DNA of 64,000 bases from Thiosulfatimonas sediminis (GTDB lineage Bacteria > Pseudomonadota > Gammaproteobacteria > Thiomicrospirales > Thiomicrospiraceae), in contig NZ_AP021889.1 in assembly GCF_011398355.1 (NCBI RefSeq), forward strand, positions 2,294,001 to 2,358,000, in the 5' to 3' direction. Numbering within the stretch: position 1 is the stretch's first letter; every line of letters begins with the position of its first letter. Both the position numbers and the translations under genes were made by a program. This document shows positions 3,018 through 56,377 of this stretch, piece after piece. The notes beneath the pieces were generated by a model that worked only from the letters and a program-made list of their open reading frames with translations, made no database searches and had not been told where the DNA came from.

Positions 3018-3614
3018 TTAGTTGCTTTGCTTAATCAAACTTTCTTCGCCATTAAGCAAGCGCTGGATATTGCTGCGGTGACGCCAAAACAGAATCAACG
3101 TCAAAGCAAGTGAACCGTAAAACCACCCTAAATCAGCGCTGATAAAGTAGACATAAACCGGTGTCAATGTAGCGGCAACCAAGGCGGATAGCGAAGATAT
3201 TTTCAATACCTTGGCAACAAACAGCCAAGTGGCGACAATCGCCAAACCGATTGGCAGAGACAACGCCAACATCATACCAAGCATAGTCGCCACTCCTTTT
3301 CCACCACGGAACCCGAAAAACAACGGATACAAGTGACCAATAAAAGCGGCAAAGCCAATCAAAAACACCTCAGTTGACGTAAAACCATATTGATAAGCGG
3401 CTAACACAGGAATCACCCCTTTTAGCAAATCACCAAACAAGGTTATCGCCGCCGCCTTATTGCCATACAAACGCTTAACATTGGTCGCCCCCGGATTTCC
3501 AGAACCGCCTTCGCGCGGATCACCCAATCCCATTAGACGACAAACAATAATCGCAGTTGATACTGAACCTAGCAGATACGCTAATAAGACCGCAATTGAA
3601 AATTCTATGCCCAT
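3018..3614 (-). CDS. plsY: Acyl-phosphate:glycerol-3-phosphate acyltransferase PlsY
   Basis: Inner-membrane enzyme that acylates glycerol-3-phosphate from acyl-phosphate, the first step of phospholipid synthesis. The 198-residue protein is hydrophobic throughout, with about five membrane segments, and carries the three family motifs: YLLGSVSTAIIV with GSGNPGATNV, the FGDLLKGVIPV segment, and FRGGKGVAT. I chose the ATG at 3614 because GGAGAG precedes it at good spacing and the product then begins MGIEFS like other PlsY proteins; the 26 upstream in-frame residues look untranslated. tsaD-plsY-folB neighbourhoods are common in gammaproteobacteria. Confidence 0.95.
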   Translation of the reverse strand: MGIEFSIAVLLAYLLGSVSTAIIVCRLMGLGDPREGGSGNPGATNVKRLYGNKAAAITLFGDLLKGVIPVLAAYQYGFTSTEVFLIGFAAFIGHLYPLFFGFRGGKGVATMLGMMLALSLPIGLAIVATWLFVAKVLKISSLSALVAATLTPVYVYFISADLGWFYGSLALTLILFWRHRSNIQRLLNGEESLIKQSN

Positions 3615-44840: not shown

Positions 44841-45281
44841 ATGAAAGACCCGAAACTTCGCAACGCGCTGCTTCTCCAACTGGTTGAACAAGCTCAAGAC
44901 GGGATTGTTGTCGCCGAAAAAGAAGGTGAAGATACCATTTTAATTTACGTCAACCCCGCCTTCGAACGCTTAACGGGATACAGTGCCGAGGAGATTCTTT
45001 ACCAGGACTGCCGCTTTTTGCAAGGAGAAGAGACCGGACAAGATGCCATCCGTGAAGTTCGCCACGCGATTAATGAAAATCAACCCGTACGTACTATTTT
45101 AAAAAACTACCGTAAAGACGGCAGTATTTTTTGGAATGAGCTAAGCGTTACGCCATTTTTTGATGAACATGACCAGATTACCTATTACATAGGCATCCAA
45201 AAAGACGTAACCGAACAAGTGGAACTGCGCAAGGCATTAGCGGCTGCGCAACAGCGCATTGCCGAATTGGAAGAAGCCTAA
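44841..45281 (+). CDS. Short LOV blue-light photoreceptor protein
   Basis: A 146-residue protein made of a single LOV-type PAS domain and a C-terminal helix. The flavin-adduct motif reads ILYQDCRFLQGEE with the photoactive cysteine at C57, followed by the LKNYRKDGSIFWNELSVTP and YIGIQKDVTEQVEL blocks of LOV domains. DGIVVAEKEGEDTILIYVN and ILYQDCRFLQG are, from memory, nearly identical to Pseudomonas putida PpSB1-LOV, a short LOV protein with no fused output domain. On illumination flavin would form a cysteinyl adduct and change the helix packing. It converges with the LitR-like gene 33 bases away, and P. putida short LOV proteins act with LitR-type repressors. The output partner here is therefore probably that regulator. 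Confidence 0.93.
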   Translation: MKDPKLRNALLLQLVEQAQDGIVVAEKEGEDTILIYVNPAFERLTGYSAEEILYQDCRFLQGEETGQDAIREVRHAINENQPVRTILKNYRKDGSIFWNELSVTPFFDEHDQITYYIGIQKDVTEQVELRKALAAAQQRIAELEEA

Positions 45282-45314: not shown

Positions 45315-46190
45315 TTACCAACTGTATTTACTGGCAAACAACTCACTAAAACGCAGCTGCTCAACCTGCACCGCCGCTTGCAACTCAATCGAACTGGGTT
45401 GCATCAACAAAACTAAACAATCTAAAGCCGGATAAATTGGCGTGCCGTAATCTGCAAACTCTTGCAAAGAACTTTGCGCCAAGAAGACCGCACCCACACA
45501 ATCCAACGCTTTTAGCTGCTTCATTTCCGGCAAAGACTCTGTTGCGGCGACCATCAGCGGCTGCATACCGTGTTGTAGAATCCATAATCCAGCAAGAGCC
45601 TTAGCGACTGGCGAGCGTAAAACACGGCTTTCAACCACTAAAATAGTTTTGTTACGGCGGTTACTTATCAGACGTTTTTGGGCAAAACGCAAACGTGAAT
45701 ACAGTCTCGGTAGCAGTGCAGACTGCCACAACACATTCTGTTCCGCGGGTTTTTGGAGTAAATCAAAACGCGCCAACAGATGCAATACACTGGTCTCATC
45801 CACTTCGATAAACAGGTTATCCAAAGCCTCTTGCAGACTGCCCATATGGAGTTTTTGTAAAGCCAATTTTAAACGACTTTCCAGCTCTTCAAATTCAGCG
45901 ATTTGAGTAAGATGCTCACTTTCTGCCCGCTGATCCAGCACCGACTTGACTTGACTAATCGGCACGCCTTGTTGACTCAGTTCAACTGCGCATTTAATCG
46001 CCTGCACGTGTTCATCCGTGTATAAACGATGACCGCTGTCGGTGCGCACTGGCTCAATCAAACCGTAACGACGCTCCCAGGCGCGCAGAGTAATCGCGTT
46101 GACACCGGTCAGGCGTGATACTTCGCGAATAGGGTATAAAGCTTGATTAGCATTCATAGCAAGGGATTCAATCAATGATAAGTTGTGCAT
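45315..46190 (-). CDS. MerR-family LitR-like light-response regulator (no visible B12 motif)
   Basis: A 291-residue DNA-binding protein with an N-terminal MerR helix-turn-helix (YPIREVSRLTGVNAITLRAWERRYGLIEPVRTDSGHRLYTDEHV), the typical LitR/CarH start. The C-terminal part (about residues 100-290) has a helical bundle and a Rossmann-like region (ILVVESRVLRSP), but I see no ExxHxxG-type cobalamin-binding histidine, unlike CarH. That suits the LitR type that works through a separate LOV photoreceptor in P. putida. It may also start at the ATG at 46157. It is the last gene of the photolyase/lipid operon, which it probably represses in the dark. Confidence 0.85.
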   Translation of the reverse strand: MHNLSLIESLAMNANQALYPIREVSRLTGVNAITLRAWERRYGLIEPVRTDSGHRLYTDEHVQAIKCAVELSQQGVPISQVKSVLDQRAESEHLTQIAEFEELESRLKLALQKLHMGSLQEALDNLFIEVDETSVLHLLARFDLLQKPAEQNVLWQSALLPRLYSRLRFAQKRLISNRRNKTILVVESRVLRSPVAKALAGLWILQHGMQPLMVAATESLPEMKQLKALDCVGAVFLAQSSLQEFADYGTPIYPALDCLVLLMQPSSIELQAAVQVEQLRFSELFASKYSW

Positions 46191-46247: not shown

Positions 46248-47696
46248 TCATACCTGTTTCAGGTGTTCAACACGCTGAAGATGTTGACTACGGCTCTCAC
46301 TTAAATCCACCACTGGCAGTGGATAATCCCGACCTAACTCAATGCCTTTCATTCGACATTCTGCTTGATGCAGCCAAGGGGCGTGAATCGCTTTTTTGGA
46401 AAGCGCTTTAATTTCTGGAACCCACTGACGAATATAATCCCCTTCCGCATCAAAACGCTCGCTCTGACGCAATGGATTAAAGAGGCGATAATAAGGCGCG
46501 GCATCGACACCGCAGCCAGCAACCCACTGCCAGCCCATGGTATTATTGGCCGGATCGGCATCCACTAAGGTATCCGCAAACCACTGTAAACCATGCAACC
46601 AGCTCTGGTTTAAATCCTTAGTCAACAAAGACGCCACCACCATCCGCACTCGGTTGTGCATATACCCTGTTTCCCACAGCTGGCGCATACCGGCATCAAT
46701 AATCGGAATCCCAGTTTGTCCTTGCTGCCAAGCACGGATAAATTCGGCATCGCTCTGCCAAGGCATAGCATTAAATTTCTCCTGAAACGGTGTTTTTTCG
46801 GTATACGGAAAAAACCACATTAACAGACGGGCAAATTCACGCCACAATAATTGGCGAACCCACGGCTGATAGTTGAGCGCGGGCTCACTTTCGCTACGCG
46901 CTAAAAGTTCAAAATAGATTGCTCGACTGGAAATTTGTCCAAAATGCAGATACGGCGATAACACGCTAGTCGCTTCGATCGCTGGAAAATCACGATCTTC
47001 GGTATAATCTTGTAGATTATGGCGGATAAAGAAGTCCAACTTCTCCCAAGCACCCTGTTCACTGACCGTCCAATATTTAAGAATTTTCTGCGCCCAAGAC
47101 TGCGCTTGCAACTGCAATAAATCTTCCGGAATCTTATCCAAACCCTGCGCACGCAGTTGCGGCCAAGCTAATTTTTGCCAGTCATCAGGTTGATGGGTAA
47201 CGGTCTCATTAAAGGGTTCTAAAAGGGCTAACTTGCTTAGCGCCGCTTTATAGAAAGGCGTAAAAACCACATAAGGATTTTTCTGCTGGTTAAGCACCAC
47301 GCCTGGATCAAACCAAAATTCCGAAAAGAACGGCTGTAAGGCAATCTTCTGTGCCTGACAAATATTCAGCGCCTGATTTTGCAGGCTGGCGAAAGGTTCG
47401 CCCACTTGAAAACTGTAAAACACTTGTTGTGCTTGTACCTGCTGTAAAGCGTCAGCAAAGCAAGTGGCAAAATCACCACTGAAAATTAACAAGTCGGCTT
47501 TTTTAGAACGCATTTGGTTTTTCAAGGACTGTAATGCCTGTGCCAACCAGATGCTATTCGCATCACCAATGCTGTGCTTTGGGTCGTGAAAATACACCAA
47601 TGCAACACGTTCAGAATGCGCGATTGCTTTTTCTAAAGCGGGAAAATGGCTTAATCGCAGTTCGCGCTGCAGCCAAACTAAAGTGGTCTTGGCCAT
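46248..47696 (-). CDS. phrB: Deoxyribodipyrimidine photolyase
   Basis: Repairs cyclobutane pyrimidine dimers with light using FAD and an antenna chromophore. The 482-residue product has the N-terminal antenna domain (TTLVWLQRELRLSHFPAL) and the FAD domain with LWREFARLLMWFFP, GIPIIDAGMRQLWETGYMHNRVRMVVASLLTKDL, and DADPANNTMGWQWVAGCGVDAAPYYRLFNP, the class I CPD photolyase signature. It lies between the CHI-like gene and the LitR-like gene. The context makes light-induced expression likely. Confidence 0.96.
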   Translation of the reverse strand: MAKTTLVWLQRELRLSHFPALEKAIAHSERVALVYFHDPKHSIGDANSIWLAQALQSLKNQMRSKKADLLIFSGDFATCFADALQQVQAQQVFYSFQVGEPFASLQNQALNICQAQKIALQPFFSEFWFDPGVVLNQQKNPYVVFTPFYKAALSKLALLEPFNETVTHQPDDWQKLAWPQLRAQGLDKIPEDLLQLQAQSWAQKILKYWTVSEQGAWEKLDFFIRHNLQDYTEDRDFPAIEATSVLSPYLHFGQISSRAIYFELLARSESEPALNYQPWVRQLLWREFARLLMWFFPYTEKTPFQEKFNAMPWQSDAEFIRAWQQGQTGIPIIDAGMRQLWETGYMHNRVRMVVASLLTKDLNQSWLHGLQWFADTLVDADPANNTMGWQWVAGCGVDAAPYYRLFNPLRQSERFDAEGDYIRQWVPEIKALSKKAIHAPWLHQAECRMKGIELGRDYPLPVVDLSESRSQHLQRVEHLKQV

Positions 47697-47741: not shown

Positions 47742-48305
47742 TTATAGCGGTTCTAACAGCGTCTCTTTAACGGTTTCGGATAGCGGTTCTTTGCCGAGCC
47801 AAATGCCAAAGTAGAGCGCTTTAAAGCCGGGGGTTTTGTCCTGATAAACCGGAACATCATTCAAACTCAAAACCACGCCTTGTTGTGCGGAGTAGCTCAA
47901 CTGATAACAATCGTCAGGCTTCACATCTCGATAGGCTTGGTGTAAACCGTTTACCGCGCTTTGCAAAGACGGCGTTAATTTAGCTGGCAAGGCTTTTGAA
48001 GCTGCTTCAACAAATTCATCTTTGGTAATTTTGTGCAGATAACATAATTTTAATTTGAGCGGTGTACTGTCATCCAAAATACTCTGCGCTTTGCTGGTTT
48101 GCGGCGCATAGAGCGCGGCTTTGTAGACGTCAATAAACAACCATGTCGCAGTGGCTTGCGAGCGCAGCGGTAAAGCCGCTAAAACGGATTCATCCAACGT
48201 AATCCCTGTCACAGATGGACTCGGCTGCGCCCAACTAGGTTGAATCAACGCAGCCATTAACCCCATAACCGCATAAAAACGGGACATTTTAGACGTTAAA
48301 AACAT
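47742..48305 (-). CDS. Exported chalcone isomerase-like protein
   Basis: A 187-residue protein with a signal peptide (cleavage after SWAQ near residue 27) and the chalcone isomerase-like fold signature: TATWLFIDVYKAALYAP, then KLKLCYLHKITKDEFVEAA and YFGIWLGKEPLSETVKETLL. These bacterial homologues have no flavonoid substrate; some members of the fold bind fatty acids, so a lipid role is inference and fits the neighbours. An AGGAGAA site fixes the ATG at 48305. The gene is between DUF3833 and phrB. Confidence 0.85.
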   Translation of the reverse strand: MFLTSKMSRFYAVMGLMAALIQPSWAQPSPSVTGITLDESVLAALPLRSQATATWLFIDVYKAALYAPQTSKAQSILDDSTPLKLKLCYLHKITKDEFVEAASKALPAKLTPSLQSAVNGLHQAYRDVKPDDCYQLSYSAQQGVVLSLNDVPVYQDKTPGFKALYFGIWLGKEPLSETVKETLLEPL

Positions 48306-48331
48306 TGTTTTCTCCTGAGCAGACAACCGCA

Positions 48332-48895
48332 TTACAGTGGTTTTTTATGAAAAAACAGAGTCACTTCACCGACCTGAAAACCAAACTTACTGACGACAGC
48401 ACGATTGAACATAGTCTGCTCGGTTTGCAACCACATCCAATCATTAAAGTTGACGGCAATTGTGCCATCCTTGTAAGGCAAATCCAGCACGTAACGCCAC
48501 TGCAAGGCATTGCCGGCACTTCGACCTTGTGCTTCCCCAATCACATCATCAGCACGCCCGCGATAATCGCCGTTACCTAAATCAGTAATTCGCCACACAC
48601 GACGCTGCTTTTCGCCATCGTCATACAGAAAATGTTCATCTAAAACCAGCTCTTTACCCTCAATGGTGCCAAGCATCTGCACAGTAAAACGGCGCAACAC
48701 CTTACCGCTGCGGTCCTGAAACTGCCCTTGTGCATAAGTGGTTCCGGCAAAATAGTCAAAAATATCCAACTTTGGCGTCTGCCCGCTGTACTCATCAATT
48801 TGCACACTACTGCAACCACTTAACACGGCAAAAGCCGAAAAAACCACCGCCAACACTGGGAGTTTCGTTAAACGACGTATTGTTTGACACCACAT
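48332..48895 (-). CDS. DUF3833 family lipoprotein
   Basis: A 187-residue lipoprotein: a hydrophobic start ends in the lipobox VLSGC. Family blocks include FAGTTYAQGQFQDRSGKVLRRF, LVLDEHFLYDDGEKQRRVWRI, GRADDVIGEAQGRSAGNA and VNFNDWMWLQ. DUF3833 proteins commonly accompany Cfa-like and amine-oxidase-like genes in singlet-oxygen/light-induced operons. The function is unknown. It follows the cfa-like gene by 10 bases. Confidence 0.9.
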   Translation of the reverse strand: MWCQTIRRLTKLPVLAVVFSAFAVLSGCSSVQIDEYSGQTPKLDIFDYFAGTTYAQGQFQDRSGKVLRRFTVQMLGTIEGKELVLDEHFLYDDGEKQRRVWRITDLGNGDYRGRADDVIGEAQGRSAGNALQWRYVLDLPYKDGTIAVNFNDWMWLQTEQTMFNRAVVSKFGFQVGEVTLFFHKKPL

Positions 48896-48905
48896 CTTGC
48901 CAGTC

Positions 48906-50135
48906 CTATTTATGCACTAAAGTGAGTTGGTTAACCGAAATATGCCCACTCTCAAAACCGACCGTACAGTAATCTAAGTAGTAGTTCCAAATACGTTGGA
49001 AAGCACGATCATAACCCATCTGTTTTAGCTGTTCGCTGTGCTGGTTAAAACTCTGTTTCCATAATTGGCAAGTGGTTCCATAGTCTTGGCCAAAATCCAA
49101 ACAATTTTCTACTTTAAAGCCGTACTCATCCGCCAACTGGTGCAACTGCTGAACACTCGGCAGCAATCCGCCTGGGAAAATATACGCTTGAATAAAATCG
49201 ACGCTAGACTGATAAGAGTCGGCCTTATCATCCGCAATGGTAATAATCTGCAACACCGCTTTACCTGTCTGTTTTAGCGTTTTCTGCAACGTCTCAAAAT
49301 AACTTTGCCAATATTCTTTACCGACTGCCTCAAACATTTCGATCGAGACGACATGATCATACTGCTGCGCTTCTAGGCGGTAATCCTGTAAGGCAATTTC
49401 ATAACGCGCTGCATCAAACGAGGCCAAACGCTGCAATGCATACTCTCGCTGTTCAGCGGACAATGTCAGACCTTTAATCTGCGTGCCATTTTCCAAGGCC
49501 GCTTGCATAAAACCACCCCATCCACAGCCAATTTCTAACAGACTTTCACCGCCCTCAAGCTGCAGCTCGTCCAAGATACGCTGATTCTTTCGAGCTTGTG
49601 CCTCTTGCAAAGAGAGCGCTTGGCCTTCGTAAAGAGCGCTGGAATAAGTCATACTCGGGTCAAGCCACAAACGATAAAAGTCATTACCCAAGTCATAATG
49701 GTAAGAGATATTCTGCTTCGAGTTTTGTAATGAATTATGACGTTTACGATGTTGCCAAAGTTGCACTAAATTACCGATGCGGTTTGCTAAAAGCCCATCC
49801 AAACAGTCTTGATTGAGGTGCGCCAATTTCAATAAATGATACAGCGACGTCGTCTCTACCGCGCTCTCGTAATACGCCTGCACAAAACCTAACTCGCCTT
49901 GTGTTTTCAATAACCAATAAGCTCTAAAAGGTTGTTTAATAATTAACTCCGCGTGCGGTCCGGCCTCTGTTCCTTCAAAACGGTGGCTACGCTCACCAAA
50001 CGTCAAGGTTAAACTTCCACAGCGTAGTTGGTCAAAAGGCAGTTTAAGTAAAGCGTAATGCACCCAAGACGGGGCAATCATTTTTTCAAGTAATACACTT
50101 ACGAGCGATTTACTGGTCGTTGAATTTCTTAACAT
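48906..50135 (-). CDS. Cyclopropane-fatty-acyl-phospholipid synthase-family methyltransferase
   Basis: A 409-residue SAM-dependent fatty-acid methyltransferase-family protein. ISYHYDLGNDFYRLWLDPSMTYSSALY, LLEIGCGWGGFMQAALENG, VVSIEMFEAVGKEYW and FIQAYIFPGGLLPSV are the conserved Cfa blocks. Relatives in this operon type are implicated in methylated furan fatty acid synthesis in Rhodobacter (UfaM-like), so the product may not be a cyclopropane. The gene overlaps DUF1365 by seven bases. Confidence 0.9.
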   Translation of the reverse strand: MLRNSTTSKSLVSVLLEKMIAPSWVHYALLKLPFDQLRCGSLTLTFGERSHRFEGTEAGPHAELIIKQPFRAYWLLKTQGELGFVQAYYESAVETTSLYHLLKLAHLNQDCLDGLLANRIGNLVQLWQHRKRHNSLQNSKQNISYHYDLGNDFYRLWLDPSMTYSSALYEGQALSLQEAQARKNQRILDELQLEGGESLLEIGCGWGGFMQAALENGTQIKGLTLSAEQREYALQRLASFDAARYEIALQDYRLEAQQYDHVVSIEMFEAVGKEYWQSYFETLQKTLKQTGKAVLQIITIADDKADSYQSSVDFIQAYIFPGGLLPSVQQLHQLADEYGFKVENCLDFGQDYGTTCQLWKQSFNQHSEQLKQMGYDRAFQRIWNYYLDYCTVGFESGHISVNQLTLVHK

Positions 50136-50953
50136 AGCCGCATCTCCGTATGAGAGTAATTAGTATTTTTTAAGGCCTTTGGCGTGGTACGAAATTTCCC
50201 ACCTTTTAGCCAGATTTTAAGCGCCCACCAATGAATCATAGTGAGGACTTTTAAACTATTAAACGGCATTGCCAATGCCGCTTTAAACAGATTTTTGCGC
50301 GTCAAAGCAACAGCTTTAGCCGCCTGGGTTGCCACCAACATTTTCTTGCCTTGTTGATGCTGATAAATGCCCAACTGAAACTGCTCGCTGGGCGCTTGTA
50401 AACGAAATTGATACACGCAATCCATGTCGATAAAAGGCGAAACATGAAATACCTTATCGGCCTGTGCTTGCAATTTTTTGCACCCGTCTAGCGCACTTAA
50501 AGCACCATCTTTGTTGGTTAGCACATAATGATGCCACTGACCAAAGGTATTGCTGACTTCACCGATGACCGCAATCAGCTTCTGCTCGGCGTTATAGGCA
50601 TACCACATTGCCAGCGGATTAAAAACAATCCCCATAAAACGAGGGGAGCAGACCAACTCGATACGTGCCGGCCTTTGCTCAACACCGTATTCACGCAATA
50701 ACCCTTCTAACCATGGACGCCAAGGTTTGCCGTCACGTGCGCCAAAATCTTTAAAATAAACGCTATACAGATTGAAGCGATTCAATGAAAAATAACCTAA
50801 AGCCCCTTGTTCGATTTCTTGCTCAATCGTATCAACATTAATCCGCAGACTCATCACCCGGTAATTAAAACGATATTGCACTGGAAAAAACCGCTGGTGC
50901 ATCACCGTTCCCAAATAAATTGCCGAAGGCTTTGCGTCATTCAAATCGTTCAT
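50129..50953 (-). CDS. DUF1365 family protein
   Basis: A 274-residue protein with the DUF1365 blocks IYLGTVMHQRFFPVQYRFNYRVMSL, NRFNLYSVYFKDFGARDGKPWRPW, RPARIELVCSPRFMGIVFNPLAMWYAYN, VSNTFGQWHHYVL and KVFHVSPFIDMDCVYQF. Genes of this family almost always lie between a Cfa-like and an FAD amine-oxidase-like gene. Biochemical role unknown, suspected in lipid modification. The ATG at 50953 lies 15 bases after the stop of the upstream gene; the frame is open further but that would overlap it. Confidence 0.88.
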   Translation of the reverse strand: MNDLNDAKPSAIYLGTVMHQRFFPVQYRFNYRVMSLRINVDTIEQEIEQGALGYFSLNRFNLYSVYFKDFGARDGKPWRPWLEGLLREYGVEQRPARIELVCSPRFMGIVFNPLAMWYAYNAEQKLIAVIGEVSNTFGQWHHYVLTNKDGALSALDGCKKLQAQADKVFHVSPFIDMDCVYQFRLQAPSEQFQLGIYQHQQGKKMLVATQAAKAVALTRKNLFKAALAMPFNSLKVLTMIHWWALKIWLKGGKFRTTPKALKNTNYSHTEMRLC

Positions 50954-50967
50954 CTGCTCGTCCACTT

Positions 50968-52308
50968 TTACGCCGTAACCGCTTGCGCATCCGCTGCGTC
51001 CCACGGTAGAGGTTGTTGCCATAAGCGTGCGATATTAACACCACTGCGCAAACCATCTTCATGGAAGCCGTAGCCAGTATAAGCGCCCGCAAACCAACAA
51101 TTATGCTGACCTTGCAATTGCTGCAAAGTCACTTGGGCGTCCATTGCTGCCTGATCAAAAACAGGATGTTGATAAACAATACGCTCATAAGTTTTGTCTT
51201 CCGCAGGCGCTTGCAACGGATTAAGGGTAACCAGGATCGGCGTTTCCAAATCAAAGTTTTGCAATAAGTTCATCCAATACGTCACCGCCACATTATTTTC
51301 TTCGCTGCTGGTATCACGCAGATAGTTCCAACTGGCCCAAGCTAGCTTGCGTTGCGGCATCAACAATTCGTCACGATGCAAATAAGCGATGTTCTGTTGA
51401 TATTTAAAATGACGCATACATTCAAAGGTAGTGCGTAATGAATCATCTAACATTTGCCAAGTTTGATCGCCGTGCGAAGCAAAAATCACGTGGTCATAAA
51501 GAGCCTCGCCCTGAGCGCTCTTAACCAATAAACCCTCAGCAGTTTTAGTCACACTGGTGACTGGGCTATTTAACTGAATCTGAAAGTCTGCTTCGGCCAA
51601 AATCGCATCAATATACTTTTGCGAACCGCCGGTAACCGTTTCCCATTGCGGACGGTCTTCAATATTCAATAAGCCATGATTTTCAAAAAAGCGCAGAAAA
51701 CTCATTGCTGGGAAGGCCATCATCGTTTTGACTGGACAAGACCAAATGGCTGCCGCCATCGGCAATAAATAGTGACTACGCATACGCTCGCTAAAACGAT
51801 GCGTTTCTAAGTATTCGCCTAAACTTAACGTGGTCGGCTGCGCCGCATTCAAATCTTTTTTGGCCTGTTTATTGAAACGCAAAATTTCGCCAATCATCTT
51901 CCAGTGCGCCATTGACAGCAAATTGCGGCGTTGCGCAAACAGGGTATTCAGGTTATTACCGGAATACTCCACTTTACCGCCGTCAATAGATGCCGAAAAA
52001 CTCATTTCGGTATCTTCGGTAACAATATTCAAATGCTTAAACATTGCCGTCAAATGCGGATAATTTGGCGTATTAAAAACAATAAAACCGGTATCGACCG
52101 CTTGCTGACGACCTTCCACTTGAACTGTTTTGGTATTCGTATGGCCGCCTAACTTAGTGTCTTTCTCATACAAAGTGACTTGATGCGATTGGCTTAAGAA
52201 CCAAGCACTGCTCAAACCGCTGATGCCACTGCCGATAACCGCAATTTTTTGTGGCGATTGATTAGCACTTTTAACGTTTATGCTCGTTGACGATTGATTT
52301 TGCGACAT
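50968..52308 (-). CDS. FAD-dependent amine-oxidase-like oxidoreductase (COG2907)
   Basis: A 446-residue flavoprotein with the dinucleotide-binding start IAVIGSGISGLSSAWFLSQ and the GGHTNTKTVQVEG segment. It continues with DTGFIVFNTPNYPHLTAMF, LLPMAAAIWSCPVKTMMAFPA and a late WFAGAYTGYGFHEDGLRSG, typical of the COG2907 NAD/FAD-binding group. The group is related to desaturases and amine oxidases; in Rhodobacter an analogous gene is needed for furan fatty acid synthesis. It is the first gene of the minus-strand operon, directly behind the regulated promoter. Confidence 0.9.
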   Translation of the reverse strand: MSQNQSSTSINVKSANQSPQKIAVIGSGISGLSSAWFLSQSHQVTLYEKDTKLGGHTNTKTVQVEGRQQAVDTGFIVFNTPNYPHLTAMFKHLNIVTEDTEMSFSASIDGGKVEYSGNNLNTLFAQRRNLLSMAHWKMIGEILRFNKQAKKDLNAAQPTTLSLGEYLETHRFSERMRSHYLLPMAAAIWSCPVKTMMAFPAMSFLRFFENHGLLNIEDRPQWETVTGGSQKYIDAILAEADFQIQLNSPVTSVTKTAEGLLVKSAQGEALYDHVIFASHGDQTWQMLDDSLRTTFECMRHFKYQQNIAYLHRDELLMPQRKLAWASWNYLRDTSSEENNVAVTYWMNLLQNFDLETPILVTLNPLQAPAEDKTYERIVYQHPVFDQAAMDAQVTLQQLQGQHNCWFAGAYTGYGFHEDGLRSGVNIARLWQQPLPWDAADAQAVTA

Positions 52309-52332: not shown

Positions 52333-52393
52333 TTGTATAAGCTTTTTTATAATTTATACAAAACCTTTACACAATTTCAAATTTATTGTACAA
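52333..52393. promoter_or_regulatory. Operator cluster and promoter for the light-responsive operon
   Basis: TTGTATAA (52333-52340) and TTATACAA (52354-52361) form an 8-bp inverted repeat with a 13-base spacer; TTGTACAA (52386-52393) adds a third, palindromic site. On the minus strand TTGAAA (-35, 52375-52380) and TATAAA (-10, 52353-52358), 16 bases apart, form a good promoter with one operator half lying over the -10. This is what a MerR/LitR-type repressor site would look like. The rest of the 352-base gap, up to the SDR start, shows only weak hexamers. Confidence 0.7.
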
Positions 52394-52660
52394 ATAAGGC
52401 TAAATTTTTTTTGGGCTCCGCAAAATAATTCTGCGAACTCCTGAATTTAAAAAAGGCTGAGCCACTTTTTTGCAGCCATCAATATCGCAAAAAGCAAACC
52501 GCTCAGCCAAATGAGTAACAATCAGCCAATTCAAGTCAGAGTTGCCCTACCGATAAACTTGGATCAACCTTAATGATTGACTCGTTTTTATTTACGCAAG
52601 AGCATCCAATATGGATGCAAAATCGTAAAAAAGTTATTCCTAGCTACTTTGGAGAGTGCA

Positions 52661-53440
52661 ATGCAACCAACGTCCACAACGTCTCAACGCATCTGGTTAT
52701 TGGGGGCTTCACAGGGAATAGGCTTGGCATTAACTCAACGCCTATTGCAACATGGGTATCGAGTTATCGCTTCTGCACGCAATGCAACCAAGAATGCCGA
52801 TCTATTAAGCTTGCAGCAGCGCTATCCACAACAACTCATACAACTCGATTGCGATATTCAGGACGCGGATTTAACCTCGGCTTGTCAACAAGCTTGGCAC
52901 GCTTTTGAGGGGCTGGATATCTGGTTTTACAATGTCGGCGCTTATCAGCCAATGCGCAGCGATGCCTGGGATTTGGCAACCTTTAATCTAATGTTACAAA
53001 GTAATTATTTAGGGGCGGTGAAAGCGATGATTCCTTTGCAACAACTGCAACAGCAACAGCAACACCAAAACCCAATGCGCTGGCTGTGGAACATCAGTCT
53101 TTCAGCCGATTTTGGTCTGCCGTATGGCGGCGGCTACTCCGCGCCTAAAGCAGCCTTGCTGAATTTAGCCGAATCTTTACAACCTGAATTGGCTCAACAG
53201 CAAATTTCTTTGCAGGTGATTAATCACGGCTTTGTTAAAACCCGCCTGACTGCCAAAAACGACTTTGCCATGCCCGGCTTAATGAGCCCCGAGCAGGCCG
53301 CTGATAAAATCTTTGCTTTCTTACAAAAACCAGCAAAACGCTTTGAATTACGCTTTCCGTTTGGATTAAGTTTGCTTCTGGCATCACTCAAACGCCTACC
53401 GAAAGGCTGGAGCCAAGCTATCACCAAAAAGATGCTTTAA
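52661..53440 (+). CDS. Short-chain dehydrogenase/reductase
   Basis: A 259-residue NAD(P)-dependent oxidoreductase: WLLGASQGIGLALTQRLL is the GxxxGxG cofactor loop, NISLSADFGLPYGGGYSAPKAAL carries the catalytic Ser and the YxxxK motif. A Gln-rich stretch (QQLQQQQQ) is near residues 127-134. I take the ATG at 52661, with GGAGAG seven bases upstream, over the longer frame starting at TTG-like positions. It opens the operon divergent from the amine-oxidase-like gene. SDR genes are usual partners of this cluster. Confidence 0.9.
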   Translation: MQPTSTTSQRIWLLGASQGIGLALTQRLLQHGYRVIASARNATKNADLLSLQQRYPQQLIQLDCDIQDADLTSACQQAWHAFEGLDIWFYNVGAYQPMRSDAWDLATFNLMLQSNYLGAVKAMIPLQQLQQQQQHQNPMRWLWNISLSADFGLPYGGGYSAPKAALLNLAESLQPELAQQQISLQVINHGFVKTRLTAKNDFAMPGLMSPEQAADKIFAFLQKPAKRFELRFPFGLSLLLASLKRLPKGWSQAITKKML

Positions 53441-53451
53441 GGACAACTCGC

Positions 53452-53946
53452 ATGACGAAAACTTTTATACCAAACGCGGAACACTCAACCGAAATCGTCG
53501 CAGCCTATGCCAAAGCATTCGGGCAATTAACGCAGGCCTCCATCTATAGCGAACTGGCACCACTTTTGGCAGAAGACATCTATTTTGAAGACCCATTCAA
53601 TCAACTTCACGGCAAAACGCGAACCTTACAATTATTCGCACATATGTTCGCCACCGTGCAACAACCCAAATTCATCGTCAGCGACTGCGCACTTGGCAAT
53701 CCCTCTATGCATACGGCCTACCTTTATTGGCAATTTCATTTTGTCTACAAAGGTCAATCGCAACAGTTTGATGGTATGAGCAAAATATTAATCAACCAGA
53801 ACGGCTTGATTTATTCACACATTGACTACTGGAATCCGGCTAAAAATCTCTATTCAAAAATTCCAGTCCTAGGCTGGATTTTAAGCAAAATCAATCGTAA
53901 ATTGGCGTTACCAGACAACTGGCAGGCCTCTAAAAATACGGACTAA
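53452..53946 (+). CDS. SnoaL/NTF2-like domain protein
   Basis: A 164-residue protein with an NTF2/SnoaL-like cone fold pattern: LLAEDIYFEDPFNQLHGKTRTLQLFAHMF and HFVYKGQSQQFDGMSKILINQNGLIYSHIDYWNPAKNLY. Such proteins follow SDR genes in this conserved cluster (HIDYWDP-type motif). Catalytic role unknown. It starts 11 bases after the SDR stop. Confidence 0.88.
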   Translation: MTKTFIPNAEHSTEIVAAYAKAFGQLTQASIYSELAPLLAEDIYFEDPFNQLHGKTRTLQLFAHMFATVQQPKFIVSDCALGNPSMHTAYLYWQFHFVYKGQSQQFDGMSKILINQNGLIYSHIDYWNPAKNLYSKIPVLGWILSKINRKLALPDNWQASKNTD

Positions 53947-53951
53947 ACGCC

Positions 53952-55280
53952 ATGCCAACACCCCATAACATCCCCCCACTCAGCCTGTCTCTACAGCATC
54001 GCAATGCGCTGCATTACGGAATGCTCGGCTTTCCCCTCGCTTTGCTTGGCATTCCACTCTACCTTTATTTGCCCAACTACTATCACCAAAGCTTTTCGAT
54101 GAGCCTTGCCTTAATCGGCAGCGCCTTACTGGCCGCACGTTTGTTTGATGTCTTAACCGATCCTTTTATCGGCTGGCTAAGCGACCGCTTAAAACTGCAT
54201 CCATCGCGATTTTTGCAGCGACAATGGCAAATCATTTTAGGTATTGTGTTTTTATCAGGCGGCACTTATCAGCTATTTTTTCCAAGCAACAACCCTGGCT
54301 GGGGCTACTTATTTATCTGGAGTTTTATTACCTATTTAGGCTGGACCTTGACTCAAGTCCCGCATCAAGCGATGAACGCGGAAATCTCCAGCGAAAGTTT
54401 GCAAAAAACACGACTGGCCAGCTATCGCGAAGCCTTTGCCATTCTTGGGGTGATGGTGGTCATCATTTTACCGGCACTACTGGGGCTGGATGCCAACAGC
54501 GAGATGTTCTATCAACTGGTATTTTTGCTTTTGTTGGTTTCGGCAATAATTGGCGCACTTAGCCTCTTTTTTCTGCGCCAAGACCGCGTTATAGAACAAT
54601 TAGAAGAAGAGTCACATTCGGTAAAAGCCCCCAGCCTGCTGTATGTCCTTAGCAAGCTGTGGCGTGAACACCGCCTAGTCTTTTCGATTATGCCAAGCTA
54701 CTTCACCAATAATTTAGCGAATGCCATTCCGGCGACGCTGTTTATGATTTTTGTCAGTGACTACCTCGAATTGAGCGAATACACTGGCCTATTTTTATTG
54801 ACCTATTTCATAGCCGGAATCGTTGCGCTACCGGTCTGGTTCAAGCTGGCGCAATTTTTCAATAAATACGAAATCTGGCAAGCGTCGATGTTGCTTGCCA
54901 GCTTAAGCTTTATTGGCGTCTTTACCTTACAAGCCGGTGACTGGCTTGGCTTTTTGTTTATCTGTATCTTGACCGGACTGAGCTTGGGCATCGACATCGC
55001 GATGCCAACCTCGATTCAAGCAGACCTAACGCAAGATGTCTTGTCCGAAAAATTACCGACCAGCGGCCTTCTTTTTGGTATTTGGGGAATGCTCACTAAG
55101 CTATCACTGGCGTTGGCGATCGGGATCAGCTTTCCACTATTGGATTGGGCGCAAAACAATCATTTTATCCCACAAGTAATTTTGTTATTGTTGTATGCCG
55201 CTGTACCGATTCTATTAAAAATCGGGGCTTGGTGGTTACTGGTCAACCTCTCTGATCAGTCTCGTTATAAGGAAGAATAA
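53952..55280 (+). CDS. MFS transporter, GPH/MelB-like
   Basis: A 442-residue membrane protein with about 12 hydrophobic helices. RLFDVLTDPFIGWLSDRLK is the DPxxGxLSDR-type motif of the glycoside-pentoside-hexuronide (MelB-like) family, and RLASYREAFAILGVMVVIILP follows. The helices are complete. In the cluster this could flip or export a lipid or other product, but this is inference; no sugar genes are nearby. It starts five bases after the previous stop. Confidence 0.88.
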   Translation: MPTPHNIPPLSLSLQHRNALHYGMLGFPLALLGIPLYLYLPNYYHQSFSMSLALIGSALLAARLFDVLTDPFIGWLSDRLKLHPSRFLQRQWQIILGIVFLSGGTYQLFFPSNNPGWGYLFIWSFITYLGWTLTQVPHQAMNAEISSESLQKTRLASYREAFAILGVMVVIILPALLGLDANSEMFYQLVFLLLLVSAIIGALSLFFLRQDRVIEQLEEESHSVKAPSLLYVLSKLWREHRLVFSIMPSYFTNNLANAIPATLFMIFVSDYLELSEYTGLFLLTYFIAGIVALPVWFKLAQFFNKYEIWQASMLLASLSFIGVFTLQAGDWLGFLFICILTGLSLGIDIAMPTSIQADLTQDVLSEKLPTSGLLFGIWGMLTKLSLALAIGISFPLLDWAQNNHFIPQVILLLLYAAVPILLKIGAWWLLVNLSDQSRYKEE

Positions 55281-55283
55281 AAA

Positions 55284-55820
55284 ATGCGTAAACTCAAAAA
55301 TTTGTTTCTCTCAGCTTGCTATCTAATCGGCTTATTGCTAACGCCACACGCAAATGCCGCACTGCAAATTGGCGACACAGCACCCAGCTTTAGTCTACAA
55401 GACCAACATCAAAAAATGGTCAGCTTAGAAGACCAACTGGGTAAGTGGGTGGTGTTGTATTTTTATCCCAAAAACGACACACCGGGCTGCACCACCGAAG
55501 CCTGTAGTTTTCGTGACAACATCAACCACCTGATTGCCCAACAGGCGGTCATATTAGGGGTTAGTGTGGATTCGGTTGCCAGCCACAAAGACTTTTCGGA
55601 AAAATTCAAGTTACCGTTTAGCTTACTTGCTGATGAAAATGGCAAGGTTGCCGCTCAGTATGATGCCATTCTCAATCTTGGGGTCGTGAAGTTTGCTCGC
55701 CGTCACAGTTTTATCATTGACCCAACTGGCAAAATTGCCCGCATCTACCGTAATGTCGACCCACAAAAACACGTCGCCGACATCCTTAAAGATTTAAAAC
55801 AACTGCAGGCGGCGCAATGA
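55284..55820 (+). CDS. Exported peroxiredoxin (Bcp/PrxQ-type)
   Basis: A 178-residue peroxiredoxin with a signal peptide cleaved after PHANA. It has the PrxQ motif YPKNDTPGCTTEACSFRDN with the peroxidatic cysteine and a second cysteine five residues later. SVDSVASHKDFSEKFKLPF and the late HSFIIDPTGKIARIYRNV complete the family. It would remove hydroperoxides in the periplasm. The gene is co-transcribed with msrA, overlapping it by four bases. Confidence 0.92.
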   Translation: MRKLKNLFLSACYLIGLLLTPHANAALQIGDTAPSFSLQDQHQKMVSLEDQLGKWVVLYFYPKNDTPGCTTEACSFRDNINHLIAQQAVILGVSVDSVASHKDFSEKFKLPFSLLADENGKVAAQYDAILNLGVVKFARRHSFIIDPTGKIARIYRNVDPQKHVADILKDLKQLQAAQ

Positions 55821-56377
55821 TGACTGAACAATCAAGCGACTTACCGTTTATCGTCTTTGGCATGGGCTGCTTTTGGGGTGCAGAAAAACGCTTAAGTGAA
55901 ATACTCGGCGTCGCCGATGTGGAATCCGGGTATGCCGGTGGCGAGACTCAGAACGCGACCTATCAAGAAGTACTTGGGCTAGAAAAAGCCTTAAAAATGG
56001 GGTTGGCTGAACAGCGTAACCACGCTGAAGTCATTAAGGTCACCTACCACCCAGAACAGGTTTCGTTGGAAACCTTATTAGCGCATTTTTGGGAAAATCA
56101 CAATCCCACACAAGGTGACCGCCAAGGAAATGATGTCGGCAGCAATTATCGCAGTGCCATCTATTACCGTACCGAAGCGGAAAAGCAGTTAGCACACGCC
56201 AGCCGGACGCTCTATCAACAGGCGTTACAAGCTCAAGGTTTTGGCCGAATTACCACCGAAATCGCGGAATTACGCAACTACAGCCGCGCCGAAGAATACC
56301 ACCAAGACTACCTGCAAAAAAATCCTGCAGGATATTGTGGCTTAGGTGGAACCGGTGTGCGCTATCCAGAGAAGTAA
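55817..56377 (+). CDS. msrA: Peptide-methionine (S)-S-oxide reductase MsrA
   Basis: Reduces methionine S-sulfoxide in proteins. The 186-residue product has the catalytic GMGCFWGAEKRL motif, VESGYAGGETQNATYQEV, NHAEVIKVTYHPEQVSL, HNPTQGDRQGNDVGSNYRSAIYY, and EEYHQDYLQKNPAGYC. It overlaps the peroxiredoxin gene (ATGATGA start). Its position at the end of the SDR operon links protein repair to the light/oxidative cluster. Confidence 0.96.
   Translation: MMTEQSSDLPFIVFGMGCFWGAEKRLSEILGVADVESGYAGGETQNATYQEVLGLEKALKMGLAEQRNHAEVIKVTYHPEQVSLETLLAHFWENHNPTQGDRQGNDVGSNYRSAIYYRTEAEKQLAHASRTLYQQALQAQGFGRITTEIAELRNYSRAEEYHQDYLQKNPAGYCGLGGTGVRYPEK

Follow-up and report, generated by a model that had tools for sequence, protein, structure and literature searches.

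The window analysed here, a stretch of 64,000 nucleotides from the genome of Thiosulfatimonas sediminis, contains a 352-bp gap separating two divergent operons in which three octamers lie close together, and the question raised by this locus is which regulator these sites serve and in what arrangement they are read. On the minus strand, the gap leads into an operon with the order oxidase-DUF1365-CMAS-DUF3833-chalcone-phrB-litR. Its first gene is FAD amine-oxidase-like (50968..52308; PF01593) and is followed by a DUF1365 gene (50129..51022), a CMAS/UfaM-like S-adenosylmethionine methyltransferase gene (48906..50135), a DUF3833 gene (48332..48895), and a chalcone isomerase-like gene (47742..48332), each assigned by Pfam. 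The photolyase gene phrB (46248..47696) was assigned by sequence similarity, a weak match to the cryptochrome query, and its conservation in the cluster, and the last gene, litR (45315..46190; Pfam, profile, and model), encodes a CarH-like MerR regulator without a B12 motif. As the gaps within this operon are at most 58 bp long and several genes overlap, a single transcript is plausible. Convergent with litR lies the gene of a short LOV blue-light receptor (44841..45281, plus strand; Pfam and structure matches) with the photo-cysteine motif DCRFLQ, and the other side of the gap is occupied by the divergent operon SDR-SnoaL-MFS-peroxiredoxin-MsrA (52661..56377, plus strand; Pfam and synteny).

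The octamers TTGTATAA, TTATACAA, and TTGTACAA are exact matches at window positions 52333, 52354, and 52386, respectively, as given in a preliminary description of this DNA. That they might be a chance cluster of A/T-rich words was considered, given the A/T-richness of the intergenic region and the fact that TTGTAYAA is not rare (ten strand-wise matches in the window versus 4.6 expected, four of the ten in this gap). However, when the 352-bp intergenic region was shuffled 20,000 times with its dinucleotides preserved, no shuffle yielded three octamers within 61 bp, nor did any of 150 shuffled versions of the window. The promoter reported to read into the amine-oxidase-like gene is likewise present on the minus strand, with a -35 element TTGAAA (52375..52380; sequence reading and promoter scan) and a -10 element TATAAA (52353..52358; sequence, position kept in relatives) separated by a 16-bp spacer. 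This promoter is a prediction, the scan alone being not significant (generic scan, 1 found versus 1.3 expected), and its overlap with the sites was judged on the predicted elements; the -10 lies inside or against the octamer at 52354-52361. The four nearest relatives have the same layout (TTGAAA/TTGCAT/TTGATT/TTGAAT-16/17-TATAAA/C). On the minus strand, a terminator-like hairpin with a T run was noticed at 52460-52477, upstream of the promoter of the oxidase gene, and may shield this promoter against antisense transcription.

The core of the putative operator is a tandem array of direct repeats of about 11 bp that spans the -35 and the -10. All its units are read on the plus strand. The innermost, TATACA (52355..52360), is contained in the octamer at 52354-52361 and overlaps the -10; TTTACA (52366..52371) follows at exactly 11 bp from 52355, fits the CarH consensus TnnACA, and recurs in four relatives, where it reads GTAAAGG on the minus strand. 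TCAAAT (52377..52382), 22 bp from 52355, is a degenerate in-phase pseudorepeat overlapping the -35 and is weak when taken alone, and the outermost unit, TGTACA (52387..52392), is contained in the octamer at 52386-52393 upstream of the -35, with counterparts in relatives, either at a distance of 32-34 bp from the repeat at the -10 or arranged as 22-23 plus 11 bp. The window has only two strict-core direct repeats and steps of 11 and 21 bp, which are not exact multiples; its 11-bp regularity draws partly on TTTACA and on the relatives, several of which carry more perfect arrays. The remaining octamer (52333..52340, minus strand, given above in its plus-strand reading) lies outside the array near the predicted transcription start and is interpreted as an accessory inverted half-site, 21-22 bp from the -10 copy, a spacing kept in five of 24 homologous divergons.

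The preliminary description had taken the first two octamers as an inverted repeat centred on the promoter and had proposed octamer pairs as the unit to be searched for. Neither could be retained: direct repeats dominate, relatives showing them in tandem at 11, 22-23, and 32-34 bp, and the unit is more broadly an 11-bp repeat, its core being TRTACA or, in a looser form, TnnACA. It had been overlooked that the repeats are phased at 11 bp, that TTTACA at 52366 is in phase with them, and that the array recurs elsewhere in the genome (hemH, ovoA, and cryptochrome). A sigma-factor element was ruled out as well: with respect to the direction of transcription, both orientations of the repeat are encountered, as with operators. 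In CarH operators, direct repeats of 11 bp, nnnnTnnACAn, stand in tandem over the -35 and/or -10, in three to five copies, some of them degenerate, as here (PMC9304148). In the window, TnnACA cores of one orientation in an 11-bp array were found at 52355, 52366, and 52387, with the 52355 unit on the -10 and the 52377 unit on the -35. The class II LitR site published for Pseudomonas, T(G/A)TACA-N12-TGTA(C/T)A with an 18-bp period (PMC9758184), has no match in the region (three mismatches at best) and was discarded as a reading, there being no 18-bp pair.

The conservation of the array was examined in 24 homologous divergons from relatives within the genus and family (Thiomicrorhabdus, Hydrogenovibrio, and allies), throughout which cluster synteny is near-perfect. 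At least one TGTAYA core is present in all 24 gaps, and same-orientation pairs at 10-12, 21-23, or 32-34 bp occur in 22 of them (shuffled gaps: mean 0.06, maximum 2), with 50 phased pairs in total versus a shuffle mean of 0.07; L076 and L081 are the two divergons with no exact phased pair. At Thiomicrorhabdus-family loci, which were chosen via the LitR or oxidase protein and not via the motif, same-orientation spacings are concentrated at 11 (33 pairs), 22-23 (17), and 32-34 bp (22), with almost none between. Whole-genome scans of TTGTAYA pairs from 9 to 38 bp gave maxima at the same spacings of 11, 22-23, and 32-34 bp and minima in between, from which we conclude that the repeat is phased with the DNA helix. 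The comparative data, together with the recurrence of the array before functionally related genes (see below), refute a chance cluster, whose probability we regard as negligible. Pairs at 18 bp were absent from 30 Thiomicrorhabdus-family loci, whereas Pseudomonas loci showed a peak at this spacing, the operon there often being preceded by two such sites at a distance of 50 bp; recovery of the 18-bp spacing there serves as a positive control for the spacing analysis. Halomonadaceae loci L119, L124, L133, L134, L138, and L148 carry both 11-bp and 18-bp half-site pairs near phrB-litR, which is possibly an intermediate between the two operator geometries.

A candidate for the binding protein is encoded by the operon itself. 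LitR has a Pfam match to MerR only, without a B12 domain match, and the B12 motif [DE]xHxxG was not found in its sequence. In profile comparisons with solved structures, Thermus CarH/LitR ranks first, and the best fold match of the predicted model (mean pLDDT 85.9) is CarH over its full length, with the DNA-bound form on top; the TM-scores of only about 0.45 and the high rmsd indicate that the domains match and their arrangement does not. LitR thus combines a MerR domain with a C-terminal region that is CarH-like by its modelled fold and is devoid of a functional B12 motif, as is characteristic of class II LitR, and synteny (phrB, ufaM-like, SDR, oxidoreductase, and LOV genes) would place it with PplR/PmlR. 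The LOV protein (146 aa) consists of a LOV domain with the adduct cysteine in DCRFLQ and no effector domain, i.e., it is a short LOV protein, and its best PDB matches are short LOV proteins of Pseudomonas. According to PMC9758184, PmlR2/PmSB-LOV and PplR1-3/PpSB-LOV of Pseudomonas similarly pair a CarH-like MerR protein lacking the B12 motif with a short LOV protein, have phrB, FAD oxidoreductase, SDR, and UfaM genes in common with this cluster, and place their sites over a sigma-70-like promoter. They differ in their 18-bp sites, two of them 50 bp apart at many loci, where 11-bp phased direct repeats are found here. CarH (class I LitR of Thermus, Bacillus, and myxobacteria) in turn shares the tandem 11-bp repeats over -35/-10 but senses light itself via adenosyl-B12 and controls carotenoid genes (PMC9304148), unlike the present system with its lack of a B12 motif, its separate LOV protein, and its photo-oxidative-stress regulon. 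For CarA of Myxococcus xanthus, a B12-independent CarH paralogue, the same kind of repeats has been reported (PMC9304148); its relieving partner CarS, however, is not a LOV photoreceptor, and its targets are carotenoid genes.

If LitR reads the array, the two should occur together in genomes. In LitR-bearing genomes, 72 of 107 genome-wide pairs are phased (p = 2e-15 against 9/30), compared with 7 of 19 in LitR-less genomes (p = 0.33, like the expectation), and 11-bp pairs number 31 in 24 LitR-bearing versus two in 12 LitR-less genomes (p = 2e-4), all p-values being indicative only because related genomes were treated as independent. Pair counts were tallied by hand, and the fragmentary genome G002 (no LitR found, oxidase present) was set aside. 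The genome-wide peaks at 11, 22-23, and 32-34 bp appear only where LitR is present. In G005, which has phrB-litR and no oxidase operon, phrB and litR follow a TIGR01777-like gene, and it is this gene that a triple array precedes. These observations bear on the possibility that the motif belongs to another regulator that controls the same genes by coincidence, for which a second MerR protein encoded in the genome, a MerR-methyltransferase-like fusion (G000:C1 near 2571618), could be invoked. This reading is very improbable in our judgement: arrays track LitR across genomes and follow phrB-litR even where the oxidase genes are missing, core and 11-bp phasing equal those of CarH operators (PMC9304148), and the second MerR protein is only a weak LitR match with a different C-terminal part. 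That protein was discarded as the binder, being apparently a methyltransferase fusion weakly related to LitR. Also discarded as a LitR site was TTGTACACTAGCTTGTACA, a pair with a spacing of 12 bp that is flanked in the same genome by serS and an integrase gene (L091 about 1979-1997; G000:C1:1045478-1045496); it is near-identical in G013 and in the LitR-less G031 and is probably unrelated to LitR.

The preliminary description had allowed for the motif being equally common at random A/T-rich sites of this genome, which is not the case: only three TTGTAYA pairs within 38 bp were found in the genome, one of them at this promoter and another before hemH. Both hemH (TATACAAAAGCTATACAA) and ovoA are preceded by exact 11-bp pairs; before a cryptochrome/photolyase gene, there is an array of four turns that includes degenerate members. 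Elsewhere, arrays were found before hemH in G004, G005, G011, G013, G020, G021, G024, G033, and G036; before ovoA in G011, G013, G016, G019, and G033 (22-bp pairs in G009 and G010); before the cryptochrome gene in G011 (22-bp pair in G002); before a peroxiredoxin gene in G022; and before a TIGR01777-like epimerase gene in G005 and G024, the names hemH, ovoA, cryptochrome, and TIGR01777 having been assigned by reading the sequences rather than by a family scan of each protein. These common target genes are, like the array, its phasing, its conservation, and its co-occurrence with LitR, direct observations. The LitR-less genomes G001, G012, and G014 have hemH without the array (in G014, ovoA is also without it), and no hemH array was found in the LitR-bearing G003 and G019. 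Both hemH and ovoA are direct candidate targets here and are not named for the Pseudomonas system in the parts of PMC9758184 consulted; among the papers listed in a literature search on CarH/LitR and hemH, none described ferrochelatase as being controlled by LitR, and a search on LitR and ovothiol yielded no relevant paper.

Further occurrences of the motif concern genes in and around the light cluster. A second hemH lies beside its LOV gene in G007, G009, G010, G015, and G016 (e.g., G009:C1:1605110-1606198); in these five genomes, the housekeeping copy is without a repeat pair, and motif copies are found in the DNA adjoining the cluster copy. In L276 (G024; 2174-2239) and L095 (G007; 3039-3056), a gene for a secreted alpha/beta-hydrolase-like protein adjoining the cluster likewise has an array before it. 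Others lie near a conserved flavin-reductase-like gene ('INSITGxKPANLIG') in L279 (G033) and L283 (G019), candidates for further regulon members.

Altogether, we consider it highly probable that the sites serve as operator for the operon-encoded class II-type LitR, acting by dark repression that blue light relieves via LOV. This agrees with the earlier suggestion that the site controls the operon as a whole, which it would do very probably as the regulatory site of the LitR-like protein. Binding, repression, and relief are inferred from the Pseudomonas mendocina work, in which illumination leads the LOV protein to bind the regulator and thereby to free the promoter (PmSB-LOV/PmlR2; PMC9758184), and from the CarH literature. 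LitR would bind several 11-bp repeats on one helix face across the -35 and -10 and, in the dark, block RNA polymerase; with litR last in the operon, it would also repress its own gene (predicted autoregulation). Under blue light, formation of the flavin-cysteine adduct would enable the neighbouring short LOV protein to remove LitR from the DNA, whereby furan-fatty-acid-type lipid genes, photolyase, and LitR would be switched on, and ferrochelatase, OvoA, and cryptochrome likewise through the array copies elsewhere. Alternatively, LitR may bind here as a light-dependent MerR-type activator that distorts a long spacer instead of being a simple dark repressor; its MerR family membership and the seemingly suboptimal -35 elements or spacers of several relatives would suit this. 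We regard activation as improbable, since the spacer in the window's clade has a normal 16-17 bp, a repeat covering the -10 suits occlusion, and PmlR2 is described as a repressor in vitro with LOV as its anti-repressor (PMC9758184).

No array was found upstream of the LOV gene, as had been noticed before, and LOV expression in Pseudomonas mendocina is constitutive according to PMC9758184, with which this absence is consistent. The earlier remark that the motif does not occur at phrB or the regulator gene was correct in that separate sites are absent; both genes are downstream members of the operon, where separate sites are unneeded and their absence is expected.

The regulator type is already known, and the operator geometry is apparently lineage-specific, so that published consensus sites would miss this regulon. 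We lean towards the reading that the LOV-controlled, B12-free LitR of the Thiomicrorhabdus-Hydrogenovibrio lineage uses a CarH-type 11-bp operator (perhaps the ancestral one), that of Pseudomonas an 18-bp operator, and that of Halomonadaceae both, with ferrochelatase and OvoA belonging to the light-stress regulon that the array marks. If so, LOV would dissolve a cooperative multi-repeat complex and not a single dimer site, and a single regulator fold would have become adapted to either of two operator geometries and to B12 as well as LOV as the light sensor, which is testable. LOV/LitR light control would extend to chemolithoautotrophic sulfur oxidisers, the operon served here combining DNA repair with membrane protection. 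The arrays would map the light-stress regulon of sulfur-oxidising bacteria, as the sequence rule predicts light-stress genes from DNA (photolyase, lipid modification, ferrochelatase, OvoA, cryptochrome, and peroxiredoxin).

The divergent SDR-SnoaL-MFS-peroxiredoxin-MsrA operon is possibly also a member of the regulon; in relatives with a relocated peroxiredoxin gene, the array precedes that gene. Upstream of the SDR gene, a perfect palindrome, GCATCCA-ATA-TGGATGC (52602-52618), was found that is near-identical in the closest relative (L062) and occurs in none of the 22 other divergons; it may be the site of a second regulator of the divergent operon.
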